38,171 nt of DNA from a bacterium (GTDB taxonomy: Bacteria > Patescibacteriota > Doudnabacteria > UBA920 > VMFF01), in contig JAKCAE010000003.1 of NCBI GenBank assembly GCA_021842385.1, forward strand, positions 1-38,171, written 5' to 3'. The notes under the pieces were generated by a model that saw nothing but the letters and a program-made list of their open reading frames with translations, ran no database searches and had not been told where the DNA came from. The position numbers and the translations under genes are program-made. Below, piece by piece: positions 14,596 to 23,435 of this stretch (positions are counted from its first letter, which is position 1; each line of letters begins with the position of its first letter).

Positions 14596-15065
14596 AACGC
14601 AAAATTAATCCTTTAGAAGAGCGAGTAAAAAAACTTCGCGAGAAAATGCCCTGTAAAGAATATGCGCTGTATCTGGTTTCCTTAAGGGCGCAGGGCACAG
14701 AGCAATTGCGGGACAAACTTCAAAGAAAAAACTACGACCAAAAAGAAATTATTCAAACAATAGATCGTTTAACAGAACTTGGATATTTAAACGACGCTTT
14801 GTTTGCTGAAACATATTTTGAAAATCTGTTGCGCTTTAAAAACTTTGGATACTATGGTGTTAAAAAGAAACTCATGCTAAAAAAAATACCTGAAAAAGAG
14901 ATATCAAGATTACTTAAGGGATTTAGTGTTAAGAAAGAAGAAGAGATTGCACAAAGAGTTTTAAGACAGTCAGCAAGAAAAACTAAAGAACAACTTGCAC
15001 GTTCTTTCCAAAGCAAGGGTTTTAGACCAGAAAGTTTTGCAAAGTTTTTGGGTCTTCTCGGTTGA
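14577..15065 (+). CDS. recX: Regulatory protein RecX
   Basis: EYALYLVSLRAQGTEQLRDKLQRKNYDQKEIIQTIDRLTELGYLNDALFAETYFENLLRFKNFGYYGVKKKLMLKKIPEKEI; start set at MQYSV. Confidence 0.88.
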   Translation: MQYSVSKRKINPLEERVKKLREKMPCKEYALYLVSLRAQGTEQLRDKLQRKNYDQKEIIQTIDRLTELGYLNDALFAETYFENLLRFKNFGYYGVKKKLMLKKIPEKEISRLLKGFSVKKEEEIAQRVLRQSARKTKEQLARSFQSKGFRPESFAKFLGLLG

Positions 15066-15187
15066 TTAACCCTCATTTTAAATGTGTAATACAAGTTTGT
15101 GATTGTTGTTTCCCTATGGTATATTTGATATATAGTTTAGAGAGGGGAAACAGTGCGACACAAACATAAAATTAAACATCATCATAT

Positions 15188-15643
15188 ATGGAATATACAG
15201 ATAAAAACGCGCAATTAATGCGTTTTTTGGCAATCATTGTCTTGATTGTGCTTTTGGCAGGATTAACATACTGGTACAACCAAGCTAACAAACCAAAGGT
15301 CTTTCCTAGAACAGACGCTTTCGCAGGGCAGGTTATTGAAGGATTTCCAAAGGATTTAATTTTTGATGCTAAAGAAATTACAGAAAGTTACTCAATTGAT
15401 TATGGCAGTTCTGCTAAGCAATACGTGGCAGAATATACATCAAAAGACCAGGTAATTATCGCGTATTTAAAGGCGGATAAATACCTTAGAGGGAATAATT
15501 ATGTAATTGTTAATCAAAGGTTGCAACCAACAGTTGCTAATATTTATGGTACAAAATCCGAGGGGGATGTAAATGTTCTTGTACAAAAATTAACAGATAC
15601 TACTTCACAAATTATTATTAGCGCTGTGAAGAAAGGAAAATAA
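15188..15643 (+). CDS. Hypothetical membrane-anchored protein
   Basis: 151 aa, N-terminal TM LAIIVLIVLLAGLTYWYN. Confidence 0.7.
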   Translation: MEYTDKNAQLMRFLAIIVLIVLLAGLTYWYNQANKPKVFPRTDAFAGQVIEGFPKDLIFDAKEITESYSIDYGSSAKQYVAEYTSKDQVIIAYLKADKYLRGNNYVIVNQRLQPTVANIYGTKSEGDVNVLVQKLTDTTSQIIISAVKKGK

Positions 15644-15646
15644 TCA

Positions 15647-17125
15647 ATGCGAACTCTTAATTTTACGCGAAAGTTTTTTAAATCAAACTTCTCTTTGTTA
15701 ATTATTTCAGCTTTGCTTTTAGGTTCTTTGAATTTTGTTCCAAAATCAGCTCAAGCCGGCAATTGTGTCATTGATTCGCTTGTGGCAACCCCTAGTGTGG
15801 TTGCCTCAGGGAATACAGCCACAATTGGTTGGACGCAAACAGGATGCGCCTCAGTAACTATTTACTTGCAGTCCGGACGTTTTTTGACTGACCCGTTATA
15901 CACAAGCATTTATGCCATAGATAGCTACACCACAGCTCCTTTGTTATATACAGGCACTAATCCGACCTATCTCTTGGTAGATGAAACTGGTACAACTGTA
16001 GCTAGTATTACCATCCCTGTTACTCAAGGTGGTAATTCGTGTGTTTTAAGTAATTTTACGTCCACAACCTTAACAGTTGCCAGTGGCTCTTCTGTAATAT
16101 TGACATGGTCAGCTCAAAATTGTTCAAGCTTGTCCATTGATCAAGGTGTTGGCGATGTTACCGGACTTACAAGCAAAACCGTAACCCCAACAGCCACCAC
16201 AACCTATACCATCACAGGATCTTTTGGTGCGGCCACTGCTTCAGTTACCATCACTGTCAGTTCTGCTCCTTGCGCGATAAATACTTTCACAGCATCACCT
16301 AATCCGACAATTGATGCCAGCAAGTTATATTGGACAACCACTAATTGCGCTAATGCATATATAATTGACCCAACCAACGCTTTTATCTCTGTCCCTGTAA
16401 ACAATCCGACCGATGGTTATCTTGTTAATGTTACTGCTGCCAGCACGGATTACTATCTCTTCACAGCTCCAAATGAACCACAACAGAAAGTGACTATTAT
16501 TAAAACAGCTGCTTGTGAAATTACAAATCAATCTGCTGTGGTTAATCCTGATTTAAGCGTAACAGTAAGCTTTAATATAGCTAACTGTACTGATGCAAAG
16601 ATCACTGGTGGCTACTTTGGCTTTAGCGGCACATCGAAATTATCCCAAACCTCGAATTATACTGGCATCATATCAGCAACCACGGCTGCCAATGAAATGT
16701 CCAGTGTTGTCACGTCCATGACTTATTACATTGATGCCTGGAGCACCGCGCCAAACGGAACGATAGCCATTGAAAAAGTTGCGGTTGCAAGTTATGCTGC
16801 ACCAGTGTGTCATATAAGCACAGGCAGGAGATTAAATAGCGGTTTAGCTCAGGATGTTGGTTTTGAGTCTGCTACGTATAAGTATGATCTTTACGGAACA
16901 CAAACAATTAATGTTTCTGGGGATATGAATAACGTGTCTGTGCCTTGTGGTGATGGAAAGTTTATTGGTATGACTTCGCCTGTTAACACAACAGCTAAAG
17001 ATTCACAGGGGAATACCATAAAAGCATACTTGAAAGGAACATATGGATTTAGCGCGAACTCAGTTAATCCTGCTCCTACAGTTATTTTTGAGTATCAAAC
17101 CCCAGCAAAGATTGAGATAAAGTAG
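15647..17125 (+). CDS. Secreted protein with repeated Cys-containing Ig-like domains
   Basis: Signal peptide (LLIISALLLGSLNFVPKSAQA) and repeats of type CVIDSLVATPSVVASGNTATIGWTQTGCASVTIY / CVLSNFTSTTLTVASGSSVILTWSAQNCSSLSI. Confidence 0.8.
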   Translation: MRTLNFTRKFFKSNFSLLIISALLLGSLNFVPKSAQAGNCVIDSLVATPSVVASGNTATIGWTQTGCASVTIYLQSGRFLTDPLYTSIYAIDSYTTAPLLYTGTNPTYLLVDETGTTVASITIPVTQGGNSCVLSNFTSTTLTVASGSSVILTWSAQNCSSLSIDQGVGDVTGLTSKTVTPTATTTYTITGSFGAATASVTITVSSAPCAINTFTASPNPTIDASKLYWTTTNCANAYIIDPTNAFISVPVNNPTDGYLVNVTAASTDYYLFTAPNEPQQKVTIIKTAACEITNQSAVVNPDLSVTVSFNIANCTDAKITGGYFGFSGTSKLSQTSNYTGIISATTAANEMSSVVTSMTYYIDAWSTAPNGTIAIEKVAVASYAAPVCHISTGRRLNSGLAQDVGFESATYKYDLYGTQTINVSGDMNNVSVPCGDGKFIGMTSPVNTTAKDSQGNTIKAYLKGTYGFSANSVNPAPTVIFEYQTPAKIEIK

Positions 17126-17153
17126 CATAAACACAGGTTTTCTCTTAAATTCC

Positions 17154-17182
17154 TTGACAAAAATTGAATAATATTTTACAAT
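17154..17182 (+). promoter_or_regulatory. Sigma70-type promoter for the GC-rich lipoprotein gene
   Basis: TTGACA (17154-17159), 17-nt spacer, TACAAT (17177-17182). Confidence 0.8.
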
Positions 17183-17211
17183 GCAGACACGATTGGTCTG
17201 CATTGTTTTTT
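17179..17211 (+). terminator. Terminator-like hairpin overlapping the -10 of the lipoprotein promoter
   Basis: Perfect 10-bp stem CAATGCAGAC-acgattg-GTCTGCATTG followed by TTTTTT. Confidence 0.75.
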
Positions 17212-17247
17212 GCAGCCAACAGAACTTCCCAACCCATAGGAGGGCAT

Positions 17248-18210
17248 ATGCGGAAGATTTACTTGCTGCTCTCAGCAAGCCTGTTTCTTTGTGCTTGCGG
17301 CGGGGAAGTTCCAACCACCCCCGTCATCAAAACCTGCAGCGGGACGATCAGTCCTGCTGAACAGGTCACCATCAACACTGGACAGACCACCTCTGTGGTC
17401 TTGAACTTCCAGAACTGCACGTCAGTAACTGTTCGGGCGGACAACGATCCCATCTACGTTAACGGCGTCACAGTAGAACCCAATGCTACGGTGAAGCTGT
17501 CGCCTTCCAAGGCAACAGTCTACACCTTCATCGGCAACGGCGGTGCTGTTACGCTTCGCCTCACGGTGAACGTCGTTGGGAAGCCGGAAGTCACTGTTGA
17601 TGTCAGCGCAGTCCCTGACAGCGGAGTTGTGCTTAACAGCACCATGAAGTTGCCACTGCGCAAGCAGAACATCAGCTCGTGCAGCGCGCCGGTTTTCAAC
17701 GGCACGTTCACAACAGCTGATCCCAACACCGTGAAAGCCACGGCTTCAATCAGCGCTGACACGCTCGTTTACAGCCCGGGCAGCACCATGCCTGTGCTAA
17801 CAAACGGGAAGCGACAGGCGACCATCCAGGTCTCCTGTCTTGGTCAGGACGGTTCAACTGTCACGACCAGCGTCACGCTGAAGCTTGTGGTACCGACGCT
17901 GAAGTGTTCGAGCATTACGCCGGACAGCGTTGCCCTTGGCTGGACCGGGATCTTGGTTGTGAACTGTTCAGGAAATTCTGTCACTTCCCTCAATGGTGTC
18001 GATTTCAAGGGCACCATGTTCACTGTGGCAATTGAAGGCGAAACACCCACTCCATTCATAACCAACCCCACGCAGTTCCACAATCCCAACGAATACGGGA
18101 TTGGGGTAACTACTTGGGGGAATGGGACATTCAAGGCGGTAAGAGACATATACCTGAAGAATTCTGAGCGGCCTGAGGAACCGCTCAAGTTCAGGTTTGT
18201 GATTTTATAA
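17248..18210 (+). CDS. Lipoprotein with Cys-containing Ig-like domain (GC-rich gene)
   Basis: AGGAGG SD at 17238-17243; lipobox LFLCAC; CSGTISPAEQVTINTGQTTSVVLNFQNCTSVTV resembles repeats in the upstream gene; about 57% GC by hand count in 17641-17700 against 35% in 16501-16560. Confidence 0.8.
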   Translation: MRKIYLLLSASLFLCACGGEVPTTPVIKTCSGTISPAEQVTINTGQTTSVVLNFQNCTSVTVRADNDPIYVNGVTVEPNATVKLSPSKATVYTFIGNGGAVTLRLTVNVVGKPEVTVDVSAVPDSGVVLNSTMKLPLRKQNISSCSAPVFNGTFTTADPNTVKATASISADTLVYSPGSTMPVLTNGKRQATIQVSCLGQDGSTVTTSVTLKLVVPTLKCSSITPDSVALGWTGILVVNCSGNSVTSLNGVDFKGTMFTVAIEGETPTPFITNPTQFHNPNEYGIGVTTWGNGTFKAVRDIYLKNSERPEEPLKFRFVIL

Positions 18211-18220
18211 TCTTCCACTC

Positions 18221-18264
18221 GCAAGACCGTTCATGCCATCCAGGTGTGAACGGTCTTTGCTTTG
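18221..18264. repeat. 44-bp direct repeat copy 1 (contains an intrinsic terminator hairpin)
   Basis: GCAAGACCGTTCATGCCATCCAGGTGTGAACGGTCTTTGCTTTG, identical to 23347-23390. Confidence 0.95.
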
Positions 18265-18442
18265 CTACCTGTGCGATTAATTATATTTGTCAATATTTTC
18301 GTATTTTTTGAGGTATTAAGTGTTGGTCATTCCTTGTAAAAATTATGAGAACAGCTTATTCTGTTATCAAGTTATATAATTTTTAATGTTGTTGCAGTGC
18401 ATAGTGTTTTGGAGTTTTTATGTTTTAAAAGTCAATAAAATC

Positions 18443-19690
18443 ATGAATAAATCAAGAAGTAATAAAGATTCGCTAAAAAAACCAAGAGGAAAATTTAAAA
18501 AGCCTGGGATTGATGATTTTCATAAAGCTGATCCAATGCCGAAAGATGTGTTTTTAAGAGTGAATAAGATTCTGAAAAACGCAAATTTATTTCGTTATAT
18601 TGGTAACAAACCAGCTGACTCAGAGACTGCTTTATTAGAAAGGGATTTTACAAAATATCTCGGAGTTAAATATGCACTTGCGCTAAATTCTTGTAGTAGC
18701 GCAATGTTTCTTTCTTTAATTAGTTGTGGTGTTAGACCTGGTGATAAAGTTTTAGTACCCGCATTTACATTCACAGCAGTTCCAAGCGCTATTATACATG
18801 CTGGCGCCGTCCCCGTGTTGGTTGAATGTAACGAGAGATATTGTATAGACGTTGATGATTTGAGGAAAAAAATATCGTCAGAAACTAAGGCTTTACTTTT
18901 ATCACATATGCGAGGGCACACTGCAGATTTGGAACGTATTGTGAAGCTTTGTAAAGAAAAAAATATAATTCTTATTGAAGATGCAGCTCATAGCTTGGGG
19001 GTGTTATGGAACGGTCAGCCAGTAGGAACTTTTGGCAAGGTTGGTTGTTATAGTTTTCAGTCTTATAAAATTATTAATGGTGGCGAAGGAGGGCTGTTAG
19101 TAACAGACGATGAAGAGATTATTGTGAAAGCAATCTTTTTATCTGGTGCATATGAAAAGATGTATGAAAAGCATTTTGTAAAGAGTAAGTTTTTTGAACT
19201 ATACAAAAATACTTTACCAGCTTTTAATTTACGACTGCATAATATATCAGCTGCTATAATTAGACCCCAAATTAAAAAAATAGAAGACAAGGTAGCTATA
19301 TATAATAAAAACTATAAATTTTTAATAAACAGACTTGCTACTTCAAAAAATATTAGTATTCCCAAAATAGATCCAAGAGAGAGAATGGCTCCAGATTCAA
19401 TACAATTTAAATTATGTAATCTGAGCCTAAAAGAAGCAAAAGAATTTATGAATAAGGTCCGAGATAAAGGGGTGTCATTGTATGTGTTTGGGGTACATGA
19501 AGATAATGCAAGATTTTTTTGGAACTGGAAGTACTTTCAAAATTCTTTCCCATTAGAAAAAACAAGGAATTTGCTGGAGCTAACGTGCGATATGAGGCTG
19601 CCAGTATCTTTCCGAAAAGTTCATATTGATTATATTGCGGATGTCATTCTTTCAGTGTTAAATGACATAAAAAAGAATGAAAAAAATTAA
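18443..19690 (+). CDS. DegT/DnrJ/EryC1/StrS-family PLP-dependent aminotransferase
   Basis: ALNSCSSAMFLSLISCGVRPGDKVLVPAFTFTAVPSAIIHAGAVPVLVE, IEDAAHSLGVLWNGQPVGTFG, SFQSYKIINGGEGG (putative PLP lysine); start MNKSRSNKD chosen. Confidence 0.9.
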   Translation: MNKSRSNKDSLKKPRGKFKKPGIDDFHKADPMPKDVFLRVNKILKNANLFRYIGNKPADSETALLERDFTKYLGVKYALALNSCSSAMFLSLISCGVRPGDKVLVPAFTFTAVPSAIIHAGAVPVLVECNERYCIDVDDLRKKISSETKALLLSHMRGHTADLERIVKLCKEKNIILIEDAAHSLGVLWNGQPVGTFGKVGCYSFQSYKIINGGEGGLLVTDDEEIIVKAIFLSGAYEKMYEKHFVKSKFFELYKNTLPAFNLRLHNISAAIIRPQIKKIEDKVAIYNKNYKFLINRLATSKNISIPKIDPRERMAPDSIQFKLCNLSLKEAKEFMNKVRDKGVSLYVFGVHEDNARFFWNWKYFQNSFPLEKTRNLLELTCDMRLPVSFRKVHIDYIADVILSVLNDIKKNEKN

Positions 19691-20666
19691 AGTAGGTGTA
19701 TTCATACCATTACCAGTCCCTAAAGGACAGAAAGCTTCGATCCATTCCGCAGGAATAGGGCGGCTTCCTTTGACCACACAACAAAGACTCGTGGAATTGA
19801 TAAGAAGTACAAAAGGAGTCGATATTTATTTTGATTTGGATTTTAGGGATTCTTTGATTCGAGACGGTAAAGTCTATGTAGGTGATTTTTGTTTGAACGA
19901 TCTTGATATTTTCTTTTGGTATTGTGAGATCGATAGAAGTGTTGGTAGTTATGATCTTGATGTACTAAAAACGCTTGCAAAAGATATTAAAGTGGTGATA
20001 AATCCGCAAAGTTTTGAGTTGGGTTTAGATAAGTATGCGTCTCATCTGGCTATAAAAAGAGCCGGTGGGTTAGTAGCCGAAACCGTCTTGTTTGATTACA
20101 AGAATTTTTCCGGAGTAGAGAAGATATTGGACGAATGGGGGCTTGCAGTGCTTAAACCTAGGCGGGGAGGTTTTGGAAAGGGAGTTACTTTGATAAGTAG
20201 CTTTGCTATGTTGCGAGATGTAGTTGATTATATCTACAGTACCACTGGCATCACGCCAGACAAAGCATATATGCTCGAAAGATTTTATGATAATAGTCAT
20301 GATAACTGGATCAGTGTAACTATGGTAAACGCAGAAATAATGTACGGCTATAGAAAAAGAAAAACAAAACTAGTTGAGATGGGTAATGGTATTACTAAAG
20401 TATATGATGCAAACGAAATAGGTGGTGATGTAGAAAGTTGTGAAGTGCCGCAGTTGTATAAGGACGAAGCATTGAAAGCTTATTATGCTATAGGTGCTGA
20501 GGTCATCGGATTTGATATGATTTTATATCAAGGTAAACCAATTATTATAGATGAGAATACTTTCCCTGGATATTATGAAGACATTTTTGAAGTCGTTGGA
20601 CGTGACCCAGCAAGGGAGTTTTATAAGCTAATCATCACAGAGATTGATAAGCTCAAACTTAGATAA
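19677..20666 (+). CDS. ATP-grasp ligase (RimK/glutathione-synthetase-like)
   Basis: WGLAVLKPRRGGFGKGVTLI and GAEVIGFDMILYQGKPIIIDENTFPGYY; overlaps the upstream gene end. Confidence 0.85.
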   Translation: MKKIKVGVFIPLPVPKGQKASIHSAGIGRLPLTTQQRLVELIRSTKGVDIYFDLDFRDSLIRDGKVYVGDFCLNDLDIFFWYCEIDRSVGSYDLDVLKTLAKDIKVVINPQSFELGLDKYASHLAIKRAGGLVAETVLFDYKNFSGVEKILDEWGLAVLKPRRGGFGKGVTLISSFAMLRDVVDYIYSTTGITPDKAYMLERFYDNSHDNWISVTMVNAEIMYGYRKRKTKLVEMGNGITKVYDANEIGGDVESCEVPQLYKDEALKAYYAIGAEVIGFDMILYQGKPIIIDENTFPGYYEDIFEVVGRDPAREFYKLIITEIDKLKLR

Positions 20667-20668
20667 TT

Positions 20669-21955
20669 ATGCTTACTAAGAAAGAAATTTTAAAGTATCA
20701 TTTAGGTGGAGAAAAAAACAATAACCGTGGTTTTGAATTAGAGATTTTTTGTTTGGGTGACAAATATCAAAGATTATTTTTAGAACAGGGACGGAAAGGC
20801 AAGTTACAGAATCTTTTGAACTATTTAAGAGAGGTAGAAAATTTCAAAAAATTGGATCTTAAAAAAACAATTGGTGTTGAAAAAAATGGATCTAAATTTA
20901 CTTTTGAGCCTGGTTTCCAGCTAGAATATAGCACAAAACGGAATAAAAACGCTGATACTTTAATTAAGGATTTTTTTGGACTACTTAAACTGTATAAAAG
21001 CTTTTGTAAAAAGCTTGGTTTAAAATTAAGCGATGTCTCTTTATTTCCTGCTGGTGACATTAAAGATACTTTTATGTTAGCTACCGATCGGTATAAGATT
21101 ATGAATAAATATTTTTCTAAAACTGGTACTCTCGGTAGTACAATGATGCGTAATACAAATTCGCTACAGCTTACTATTAGTTATGGGTCCAAGCAAGATT
21201 TGGAAGAAAAAGTAAATAGACTGCTTTTTCTTAAGCCTGTTTTACTTGCACTTTCATCAAATTCGCGTGTTCATAAAAATAAAGACACAGGTTTTCGTTC
21301 TTTCCGAGATGTAATATGGAAAAATACCGATCCAAAACGCTGTGGTGACCCAGGAAAAAATTTTTGGATAAATGGACGGTGGATAATAGAAGATTATATA
21401 GAAAAAGTTTTGGATGCACCAGTTATTTTTGATGTTGTCAATAAACGGTATAAAGCAGTGCCTGCAGAGCCTTTTCGTAATTTAATGGACAGTCTTGATC
21501 TTGAGTCATATATTTTTCATAATTCAACCATCTTTACAGATATACGTATAAAGGATTATATTGAACTGAGATACCTGGATAATCCAACTATTCTTTTAGT
21601 GCCGGGTATGATTTTGTTAGTAGAAAATGCTTTGAATAACGGTAAAGTTTGGAAATTGCTTGAAGGCTTGCCTTATAAGTTTGAGAACGTTCCCGATATG
21701 AGCCAAAAACTTAATACAGTTGACAAGGAGTCGTTTGAGTTCTGGAATCAAGCAATAAAACCAGTTTTAGTGGAGGCACTTAATGAGATAAAGTTGTCTT
21801 GCTCCCGAGAAAATCATTTTTTTCTTGATGTTTTATTAGAAAAGATACATCAGCTTGGTAGTTTATCAAATTTACAAGTTAGTACTAAAAATTTTTTAGA
21901 AAACTCAACCAATCAATTTAATAATAATTTAATAAGGCTCGCTAGTCGTGAGTAA
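20669..21955 (+). CDS. Glutamate-cysteine ligase-like (plant-type GCS2) protein
   Basis: FEPGFQLEYSTKRN, RYKIMNKYFSKTGTLGSTMMRNTNSLQLTISYGSKQDLEEKVNRLLFLKPVLLALSSNS, GFRSFRDVIWKNTDPKRCG follow the block order of plant/alphaproteobacterial-type GshA. Confidence 0.8.
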   Translation: MLTKKEILKYHLGGEKNNNRGFELEIFCLGDKYQRLFLEQGRKGKLQNLLNYLREVENFKKLDLKKTIGVEKNGSKFTFEPGFQLEYSTKRNKNADTLIKDFFGLLKLYKSFCKKLGLKLSDVSLFPAGDIKDTFMLATDRYKIMNKYFSKTGTLGSTMMRNTNSLQLTISYGSKQDLEEKVNRLLFLKPVLLALSSNSRVHKNKDTGFRSFRDVIWKNTDPKRCGDPGKNFWINGRWIIEDYIEKVLDAPVIFDVVNKRYKAVPAEPFRNLMDSLDLESYIFHNSTIFTDIRIKDYIELRYLDNPTILLVPGMILLVENALNNGKVWKLLEGLPYKFENVPDMSQKLNTVDKESFEFWNQAIKPVLVEALNEIKLSCSRENHFFLDVLLEKIHQLGSLSNLQVSTKNFLENSTNQFNNNLIRLASRE

Positions 21956-21961
21956 AAGTAT

Positions 21962-23215
21962 ATGATAGATATTAAATTAGTACGAGACAATCAGGAATTA
22001 GTAAAAAAGAAAATAGCGACAAAAGGATATGATCCATCGCTCGTTGATGATTTTATCGTGGCAGATTCAGAGTATAGAAAATTGTTGGCAGAGTCTGAGG
22101 ACTTAAGAAAACGCCGCAATGAAATATCAATAGATGATGCCAGTCGTGAAGAAGCAAAACAAATTAAAATTGCTTTACAGAAGTTAGAAAACACCCTTAA
22201 GAAAAAGGAAGAGAAAGTTTCGCAATTACTTAATGGTATTCCAAATTTACCTTTAGATGACGTACCAATAGGGAAAACCGAAAATGACAACAAAGTGTTG
22301 AAAACCTTTGGCACAAAACCGAATTTTGCTTTTAAGCCAAAAACACACTTTGAGCTGGGTAAAGCCCTCGACCTTTTAAATTTTGAAGCAGGCGCAAAAG
22401 TTACAGGCTCCCAATTTTATTTCCTGCTTGGAGATATTGTCTTTCTTGAGTTTGCTTTAGTTGATTATGCTTTTAGATTACTTGTCAAAGAAGGTTTTGT
22501 GCCTATCATAACGCCAGACTTGGCAAAATCCCGATATTATTTAGGCACAGGATATATACCTAAAGGCGACGAAGCCCAGATTTATACGATTGAAGGCGAG
22601 GATTTGGGTTTAATTGCTACTGCTGAAGTTACTATAGCCGGGCTATACGCTGATGAAATTATACCTGAGGAAAATTTGCCGTTAAAGTATATAGGGTACT
22701 CCCACGCATTTAGGCAGGAAGCGGGAGCCTATGGTAAGTATTCTAACGGTCTTTATCGTGTGCACCAGTTTACTAAAGCGGAAATGTTTGTTTATTGCCT
22801 GCCTGAAGAGTCAGAAGCTTTGCATGGTTATCTTTTAGGACTGGAAGAGAAGATTTATCAAGGCTTGGGTATTCCGTACCGTGTTTTGGAAATGTGCACT
22901 GCTGATCTTGGCGCCATTGCTGCGAAAAAATATGATATCGAAGCATGGATGCCAGGACGTAATGATTACGGAGAGGTGACATCGACATCGAACTGTACAG
23001 ATTACCAAGCCAGAAATTTAAAAATCAGGGTTCGCAGAAAAAACGGAAAGATTGAGTACTTGCATATGCTAAATGGTACAGCAATTGCTATATCACGCAC
23101 GTTAATTGCAATATTTGAGAATTATCAGCAAGAAGATGGAACAATCATTGTTCCTGAAGTATTGAGAGCATACATGGGCAAGGATAGGATTGGTTTTGAA
23201 AAGAATTTGTTATGA
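21962..23215 (+). CDS. serS: Seryl-tRNA synthetase
   Basis: 417 aa; N-terminal coiled-coil arm, TAEVTIAGLYADE, motif 2 FRQEAGAYGKYSNGLYRVHQF, STSNCTDYQARNLKIR, motif 3 LNGTAIAISRTLIAIFENYQQEDGTIIVPEVLRAYMG. Confidence 0.93.
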   Translation: MIDIKLVRDNQELVKKKIATKGYDPSLVDDFIVADSEYRKLLAESEDLRKRRNEISIDDASREEAKQIKIALQKLENTLKKKEEKVSQLLNGIPNLPLDDVPIGKTENDNKVLKTFGTKPNFAFKPKTHFELGKALDLLNFEAGAKVTGSQFYFLLGDIVFLEFALVDYAFRLLVKEGFVPIITPDLAKSRYYLGTGYIPKGDEAQIYTIEGEDLGLIATAEVTIAGLYADEIIPEENLPLKYIGYSHAFRQEAGAYGKYSNGLYRVHQFTKAEMFVYCLPEESEALHGYLLGLEEKIYQGLGIPYRVLEMCTADLGAIAAKKYDIEAWMPGRNDYGEVTSTSNCTDYQARNLKIRVRRKNGKIEYLHMLNGTAIAISRTLIAIFENYQQEDGTIIVPEVLRAYMGKDRIGFEKNLL

Positions 23216-23346
23216 TATGGCATAGTAAATAACCGTAGGCACTAGGTTTAAGGGATCAAAAGCTGTTTTACAAAAAGCTTTGTGCCAATTGGCTGAATTC
23301 GTCATCCGACGACGCAGTCATACACGTCACGCAGGTTTTCCTACAA

Positions 23347-23390
23347 GCAAGACCGTTCATGCCATCCAGGTGTGAACGGTCTTTGCTTTG
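23347..23390. repeat. 44-bp direct repeat copy 2 (contains an intrinsic terminator hairpin)
   Basis: Identical to 18221-18264; stem GACCGTTCA/TGAACGGTC followed by TTTGCTTTG. Confidence 0.95.
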
Positions 23391-23435
23391 TTTAGGTTTG
23401 ATTATTAACCCTTTTGTATATATCATTGAATATAT

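Follow-up and report, generated by a model that had tools for sequence, protein, structure and literature searches.

A second seryl-tRNA synthetase and three putative biosynthetic enzymes share a predicted operon on a relocating gene block of a CPR bacterium

Results

Four tightly packed genes within an 8.2-kb block

We analyzed a stretch of 38,171 nucleotides (the window), i.e., contig C7 of genome G000 (565 kb, 90% complete). The host belongs to the Patescibacteria (CPR), a placement that the original prediction had considered, as does G103, a genome of the same phylum compared below. Four genes on the forward strand occupy positions 18386–23215, exactly where the original prediction had placed them. 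They encode a DegT-family aminotransferase, an ATP-grasp ligase, a GCS2-family ligase (GCS) and a seryl-tRNA synthetase (SerRS2); we refer to the first three as the trio. The predicted head-to-tail packing was also found: DegT (18386–19690) and ATP-grasp (19677–20666) overlap by 14 nt, and gaps of 2 nt and 6 nt precede GCS (20669–21955) and SerRS2 (21962–23215), respectively. DegT has two candidate start codons in the same frame, an ATG at 18386 and another near 18443. The genes and the surrounding block comprise the following features:

15062–15072, no strand: left block edge, TTGATTAACCC; overlaps the stop codon of recX; set by comparison with TTGATTATTAACCC at the uninterrupted G002 site
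15066–23397, forward: block of about 8.2 kb, absent at the homologous G002 site; homology to the G002 copy spans 15094–23281
15188–15643, forward: small protein with hydrophobic N terminus; orthologue in the G002 block 87% identical; moves with the block
15647–17125, forward: predicted secreted protein with signal-like N terminus; G002 orthologue; moves with the block
17164–18210, forward: predicted lipoprotein; G002 orthologue 62% identical; local G+C 51%; moves with the block
18221–18264, forward: 44-nt terminator-like hairpin, copy 1, 100% identical to copy 2
18334–18362, forward: promoter-like sequence TTGTAA-17-TATTCT upstream of DegT; 26 of 30 nt kept 5' of SerRS2 in G002
18386–19690, forward: DegT/DnrJ/EryC1/StrS-family PLP aminotransferase (PF01041, lysine motif YSFQSYKIINGGEGG)
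19677–20666, forward: putative ATP-grasp amide ligase of RimK/LysX fold (five-sequence model, Foldseek)
20669–21955, forward: GCS2-family carboxylate-amine ligase, diverged from plant-type glutamate-cysteine ligase (GCL) (PF04107, conserved residues)
21913–21955, forward: 3' end of GCS (43 nt), retained ahead of SerRS2 in G002
21962–23215, forward: SerRS2, N-terminal arm and class II core (TIGR00414)
23347–23390, forward: 44-nt terminator-like hairpin, copy 2, 100% identical to copy 1
23398–23411, no strand: right block edge, TTGATTATTAACCC; set by the same G002 comparison

The two hairpin copies, on either side of the four genes, are the only ones in the whole G000 genome; the sister genome G002 has one copy, at the equivalent place. 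The promoter-like sequence matches the consensus at 8 of 12 positions, which is under the scanner threshold. Because of the tight gene spacing and the upstream region conserved in G002, we infer that the four genes form a single transcript. Neither the small protein at 15188–15643 nor the predicted secreted protein matched a Pfam family; distant paralogues of the former occur in G001–G004.

An aminotransferase and two diverged ligases

The prediction of an aminotransferase together with members of two ligase families was borne out by profile searches and by the ATP-grasp fold. DegT scored 232 bits against PF01041 (E 1e-68), well over the cut-off of 19.8, and carries the PLP-lysine motif YSFQSYKIINGGEGG. 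In both respects it resembles octulosonate, scyllo-inosose and perosamine transaminases, and its nearest solved chains include 8-amino-octulosonate, inosose and perosamine transaminases at modest scores. It stays, however, under every cut-off listed for DegT-type transaminases of named function and, in contrast to DegT/DnrJ/EryC1/StrS systems, no nucleotide-sugar genes were recognized in the block.

The ATP-grasp protein was weak by sequence, i.e., under the cut-offs for RimK PF08443 (17.6 bits versus 21) and TIGR00768 (39.9 versus 143.4); its relative in G103 passes PF08443 with 66.1 bits. A five-sequence structure model (pLDDT 81.5) nevertheless upheld the assignment: Foldseek comparison with the PDB placed LysX, RimK and D-Ala-D-Ala ligases closest, with a probability of 1.00 for LysX/RimK. 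Because the model is closest to these ligases, the weak family match is best read as divergence. By alignment, ATP-grasp residues are retained. The protein thus resembles RimK/LysX/ArgX amino-acid ligases in predicted fold and in these residues, although not in reaching the RimK sequence cut-offs. Its group includes members from G103 and Bacteroidota, at 31–35% identity. The G103 relative sits in a cluster of several ATP-grasp ligases (L068) where, unlike here, DegT, GCS2 and SerRS are absent from the stretch read. Three Bacteroidota relatives (L093, L094, L095) adjoin an FGE-sulfatase/DinB protein of EgtB/OvoA type; a second ATP-grasp gene is also nearby in L093 and L095. Profile searches gave no match to a glutathione-synthetase (GshB) domain in the window ATP-grasp protein.

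GCS passed PF04107 (GCS2) with 90.6 bits (cut-off 21, E 1.5e-25). Its best named profile was plant GCL (TIGR01436), followed by EgtA (TIGR03444), both under cut-off; the 130.8 bits reached against the plant GCL equivalog lie far under the required 463.15, in line with the predicted divergence from true plant-type GCL. A single-sequence AlphaFold model had a pLDDT of 31.3, and the fold assignment rests on sequence profiles. GCS shares its family with EgtA and with plant-type GCL (PDB 2GWC, 6GMO, 9UFC), the latter at about 25% identity, and keeps the GCS2-wide residues: E80, E86, S199, R213, H284, R293, E299, R301 and D304 match all 10 compared GCS2 proteins, and S88, R141, Q167, D221 and R224 match 9 of 10. 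By contrast, in the alignment GCS departs from four bona fide plant-type GCLs at more than half of the columns that these share without variation, including the GCL-fixed EPGGQ and MMxRTC. The predicted change in the substrate motif is present but modest, as EPGFQLEYS keeps the E-x5-E-x-S frame. As GCS retains the GCS2-wide residues but deviates at most GCL-specific ones, our best guess is that it is a carboxylate-amine ligase whose acceptor is an amine other than cysteine.

SerRS2 is a second, divergent synthetase

SerRS2 is full-length and scored 472 bits against TIGR00414 (cut-off 301.65). Seryl_tRNA_N and core domains were matched, class II motifs are present, and the active-site motifs are nearly canonical. 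G000 contains two serS copies; SerRS1, encoded elsewhere (G000:C2:177-1457), is 42% identical to SerRS2. Its gene precedes ftsQ-like and UMP-kinase-like genes; G002 shows this arrangement too, preceded there by lysS-like and NUDIX-like genes (neighbors were named from their sequences rather than by profile matches).

A maximum-likelihood tree of 32 sequences places SerRS1 with SerRSs from other members of the order and SerRS2 in a separate, well-supported clade. The nearest relatives of SerRS2 that we found are 59–64% identical and come from other families, in genomes with one SerRS match each; DegT, ATP-grasp and GCS occur in none of the three regions read around them. More than one SerRS match at E 1e-40 was obtained for 3 of 379 phylum genomes (G000, G002, G133). 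We regard SerRS2 as xenologous to the housekeeping SerRS1 and, as the sequences indicate, horizontally acquired.

Between G000 and G002, dN/dS of SerRS2 is about 0.05, similar to SerRS1, and two SerRS2 copies or variants within G002 differ with dN 0.002 and dS 0.29. SerRS2 in G002 has hence stayed under purifying selection.

We rejected the idea that SerRS2 compensates for a broken SerRS1: the odd SerRS1 motif and its one-residue deletion are shared by G001, where SerRS2 was not found. SerRS1 (L003) and its order-mates L016, L020–L022, L024 and L028 have NDAT or NDAT-like residues before motif 3, at a place where most SerRSs have LN[GN][ST]; the genus adds the one-residue deletion there. Separately, the SerRS matches of G053 and G007 (L007, L010) contain one TGA, which may be just a frame end.

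The block occupies different positions in sister species

In G000, recX and a 191-aa ORF border the block, with short direct repeats TTGATTA(TTA)ACCC on both sides. In G002, it lies between gpmI and recJ, without the trio: contig C11 carries the block beside gpmI, and C10, with recJ further along, is its most likely continuation across SerRS2. Conversely, homologues of w15046 and w23398 are directly joined on C1 of G002, about 15 nt apart and block-free, and in G000 (C25) and G001 (C32) gpmI and recJ are close, with an unrelated ORF of about 200 aa between them and the block absent. The gpmI and recJ matches of G003 are 8 nt apart. Because each genome has a block-free site at the other's position, the block occupies different chromosomal positions in G000 and G002; one contig link, C11–C10 at the right junction of G002, is deduced from contig ends, as both contigs stop inside SerRS2.

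No integrase or transposase was recognized within the block. Recent exchange of the block between species was considered but found no support, given that its dS values (0.51–1.85) lie mostly within those of other genes (0.63–2.44), with SerRS2 slightly below. In L116 and L117, the ORFs of about 200 aa between gpmI and recJ are G+C-rich and take up the site at which G002 carries the block.

G002 retains SerRS2 and a remnant of GCS

In G002, the DegT-upstream region is separated by about 3 nt from the 43-nt 3' end of GCS, which is in the same reading frame and precedes SerRS2. Because the C-terminal tail of GCS aligns with the C termini of GCLs, the trio was most likely lost from G002, through deletion of about 3.55 kb, rather than gained by insertion in G000, a direction read from the short 43-nt tail.

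Upstream of this tail (L035, about 600–1500), G002 has a pseudogene of a low-molecular-weight phosphatase and also an integrase-like remnant of 36 aa, whose rve_2 match (E 0.005) falls short of the cut-off. A further SerRS2 3' half was found on C47, with an intact phosphatase (LMWPc) nearby. Compared with the half on C10, it is 99.6% identical in protein and 95% in DNA (L036 8837–9601; L037 1–765). Its context differs from that of C10, and it may represent a second copy or a strain variant.

The gene set was not found elsewhere

Searching 379 sampled phylum genomes with two of the genes revealed no other DegT, ATP-grasp and GCS cluster. The original prediction had named a lack of co-occurrence elsewhere as grounds for refutation, but in G002 a GCS remnant still precedes SerRS2. 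GCS2 members occur in 14 of the 379 genomes, none of them close, and at the GCS2 loci examined DegT and this ATP-grasp were both absent over a distance of about 1.5 kb. Nearly all compared genomes are fragmentary assemblies. Single-sequence GCS scans of genome and viral contigs, an ATP-grasp scan of viral contigs and phage searches gave no match. Plasmids yielded only distant GCS2 and ATP-grasp relatives, with the cassette absent from the annotated or read contexts.

Discussion

DegT, ATP-grasp and GCS together look like an amide-ligase pathway, a co-function read from their adjacency in one species. We propose that DegT most likely transfers an amino group onto a keto substrate, sugar- or cyclitol-like, a class guessed from the broad family. 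GCS would activate a carboxylate, probably the glutamate γ-carboxyl, as acyl phosphate and join it to an amine other than cysteine, and the ATP-grasp ligase would add a further amino-acid unit. The output could be an amide-linked small molecule or a modified amino sugar.

The original prediction named a glutathione-like or γ-glutamyl small-molecule pathway. For a glutathione-like thiol, GCS would form γ-glutamylcysteine and the ATP-grasp enzyme would add a third residue. Plant GCL and then EgtA are indeed the top named profiles for GCS, and the Bacteroidota ATP-grasp relatives adjoin the EgtB/OvoA-type protein and a second ATP-grasp gene. However, GCS scores far under the profile cut-offs and differs at most positions held constant in true GCLs, the ATP-grasp protein is without a glutathione-synthetase match, and such a pathway gives DegT no role. 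The relatives of the ATP-grasp protein, in another ligase cluster or beside the EgtB/OvoA-type protein, likewise lend no support to glutathione specifically. We therefore consider a glutathione-like thiol unlikely, though not the most improbable of the alternatives.

For the synthetase, two roles had been proposed, i.e., seryl-tRNA as a pathway substrate or a housekeeping gene joined by the pathway. Both need revision, as SerRS2 is a second, xenologous SerRS kept without the trio in the sister species. Its retention under purifying selection in G002 without the trio argues that SerRS2 is independent of these enzymes. It would be an auxiliary synthetase working alone, sharing the operon upstream region and not feeding the trio. 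With about even confidence in our best explanation taken as a whole, we suggest that the four genes are one operon on a gene block of changing chromosomal position.

Among the alternatives, we give most room, while still thinking it unlikely, to SerRS2 as a passenger, i.e., a redundant foreign serS on the block that came to lie beside the trio by chance rearrangement. Its foreign ancestry, an unstable locus (G002 has an integrase-like remnant there) and a trio unlinked to serS elsewhere fit this, but purifying selection is strong, both across species and between the G002 copies or variants, and points to a useful function. AbmK/SerRS2 of albomycin and VlmL of valanimycin set precedents for a second SerRS in immunity or substrate supply (PMC9032320; PMC9437257). 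Here, too, a second SerRS diverged from the housekeeping copy lies beside biosynthetic genes (PMC9032320); unlike in those systems, nucleoside, siderophore and azoxy genes were not recognized, and SerRS2 outlives its neighbors in the sister species. By analogy to the albomycin producers (PMC9032320, PMC9437257), SerRS2 might be an immunity enzyme that resists a seryl-adenylate mimic, made with help of the trio or by other microbes; G002 would then have lost production and kept immunity. A divergent SerRS within a biosynthetic-looking operon, kept in G002 without the trio, suits this reading. We nevertheless find it improbable, given that nucleoside and siderophore genes were not recognized in the block, the SerRS2 motifs are nearly canonical and no other SerRS was found in the genomes that carry its nearest relatives. 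Bolder, and a long shot, is the idea that the trio itself helps make the seryl-adenylate-like compound, with G002 as an immune non-producer that kept the upstream region and SerRS2; if true, an ultra-small CPR bacterium would carry a combined antibiotic and immunity operon. Least probable of all is a supply role like that of VlmL or AbmK, in which the trio would draw seryl-tRNA or seryl-adenylate from SerRS2: despite these precedents and the shared operon, no seryl-tRNA-dependent transferase was recognized adjoining SerRS2, and G002, where the trio is absent, still keeps SerRS2 under constraint.

Several aspects matter for CPR biology. A second SerRS is rare in the phylum, and reduced genomes are not expected to retain one without reason. 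The block is a case of genes seen shifting position within CPR genomes. The two sister species offer a natural experiment, with the synthetase accompanied by the ligase genes in one and lacking them in the other, and the trio would provide a concrete, testable enzyme set for an amide-linked metabolite.
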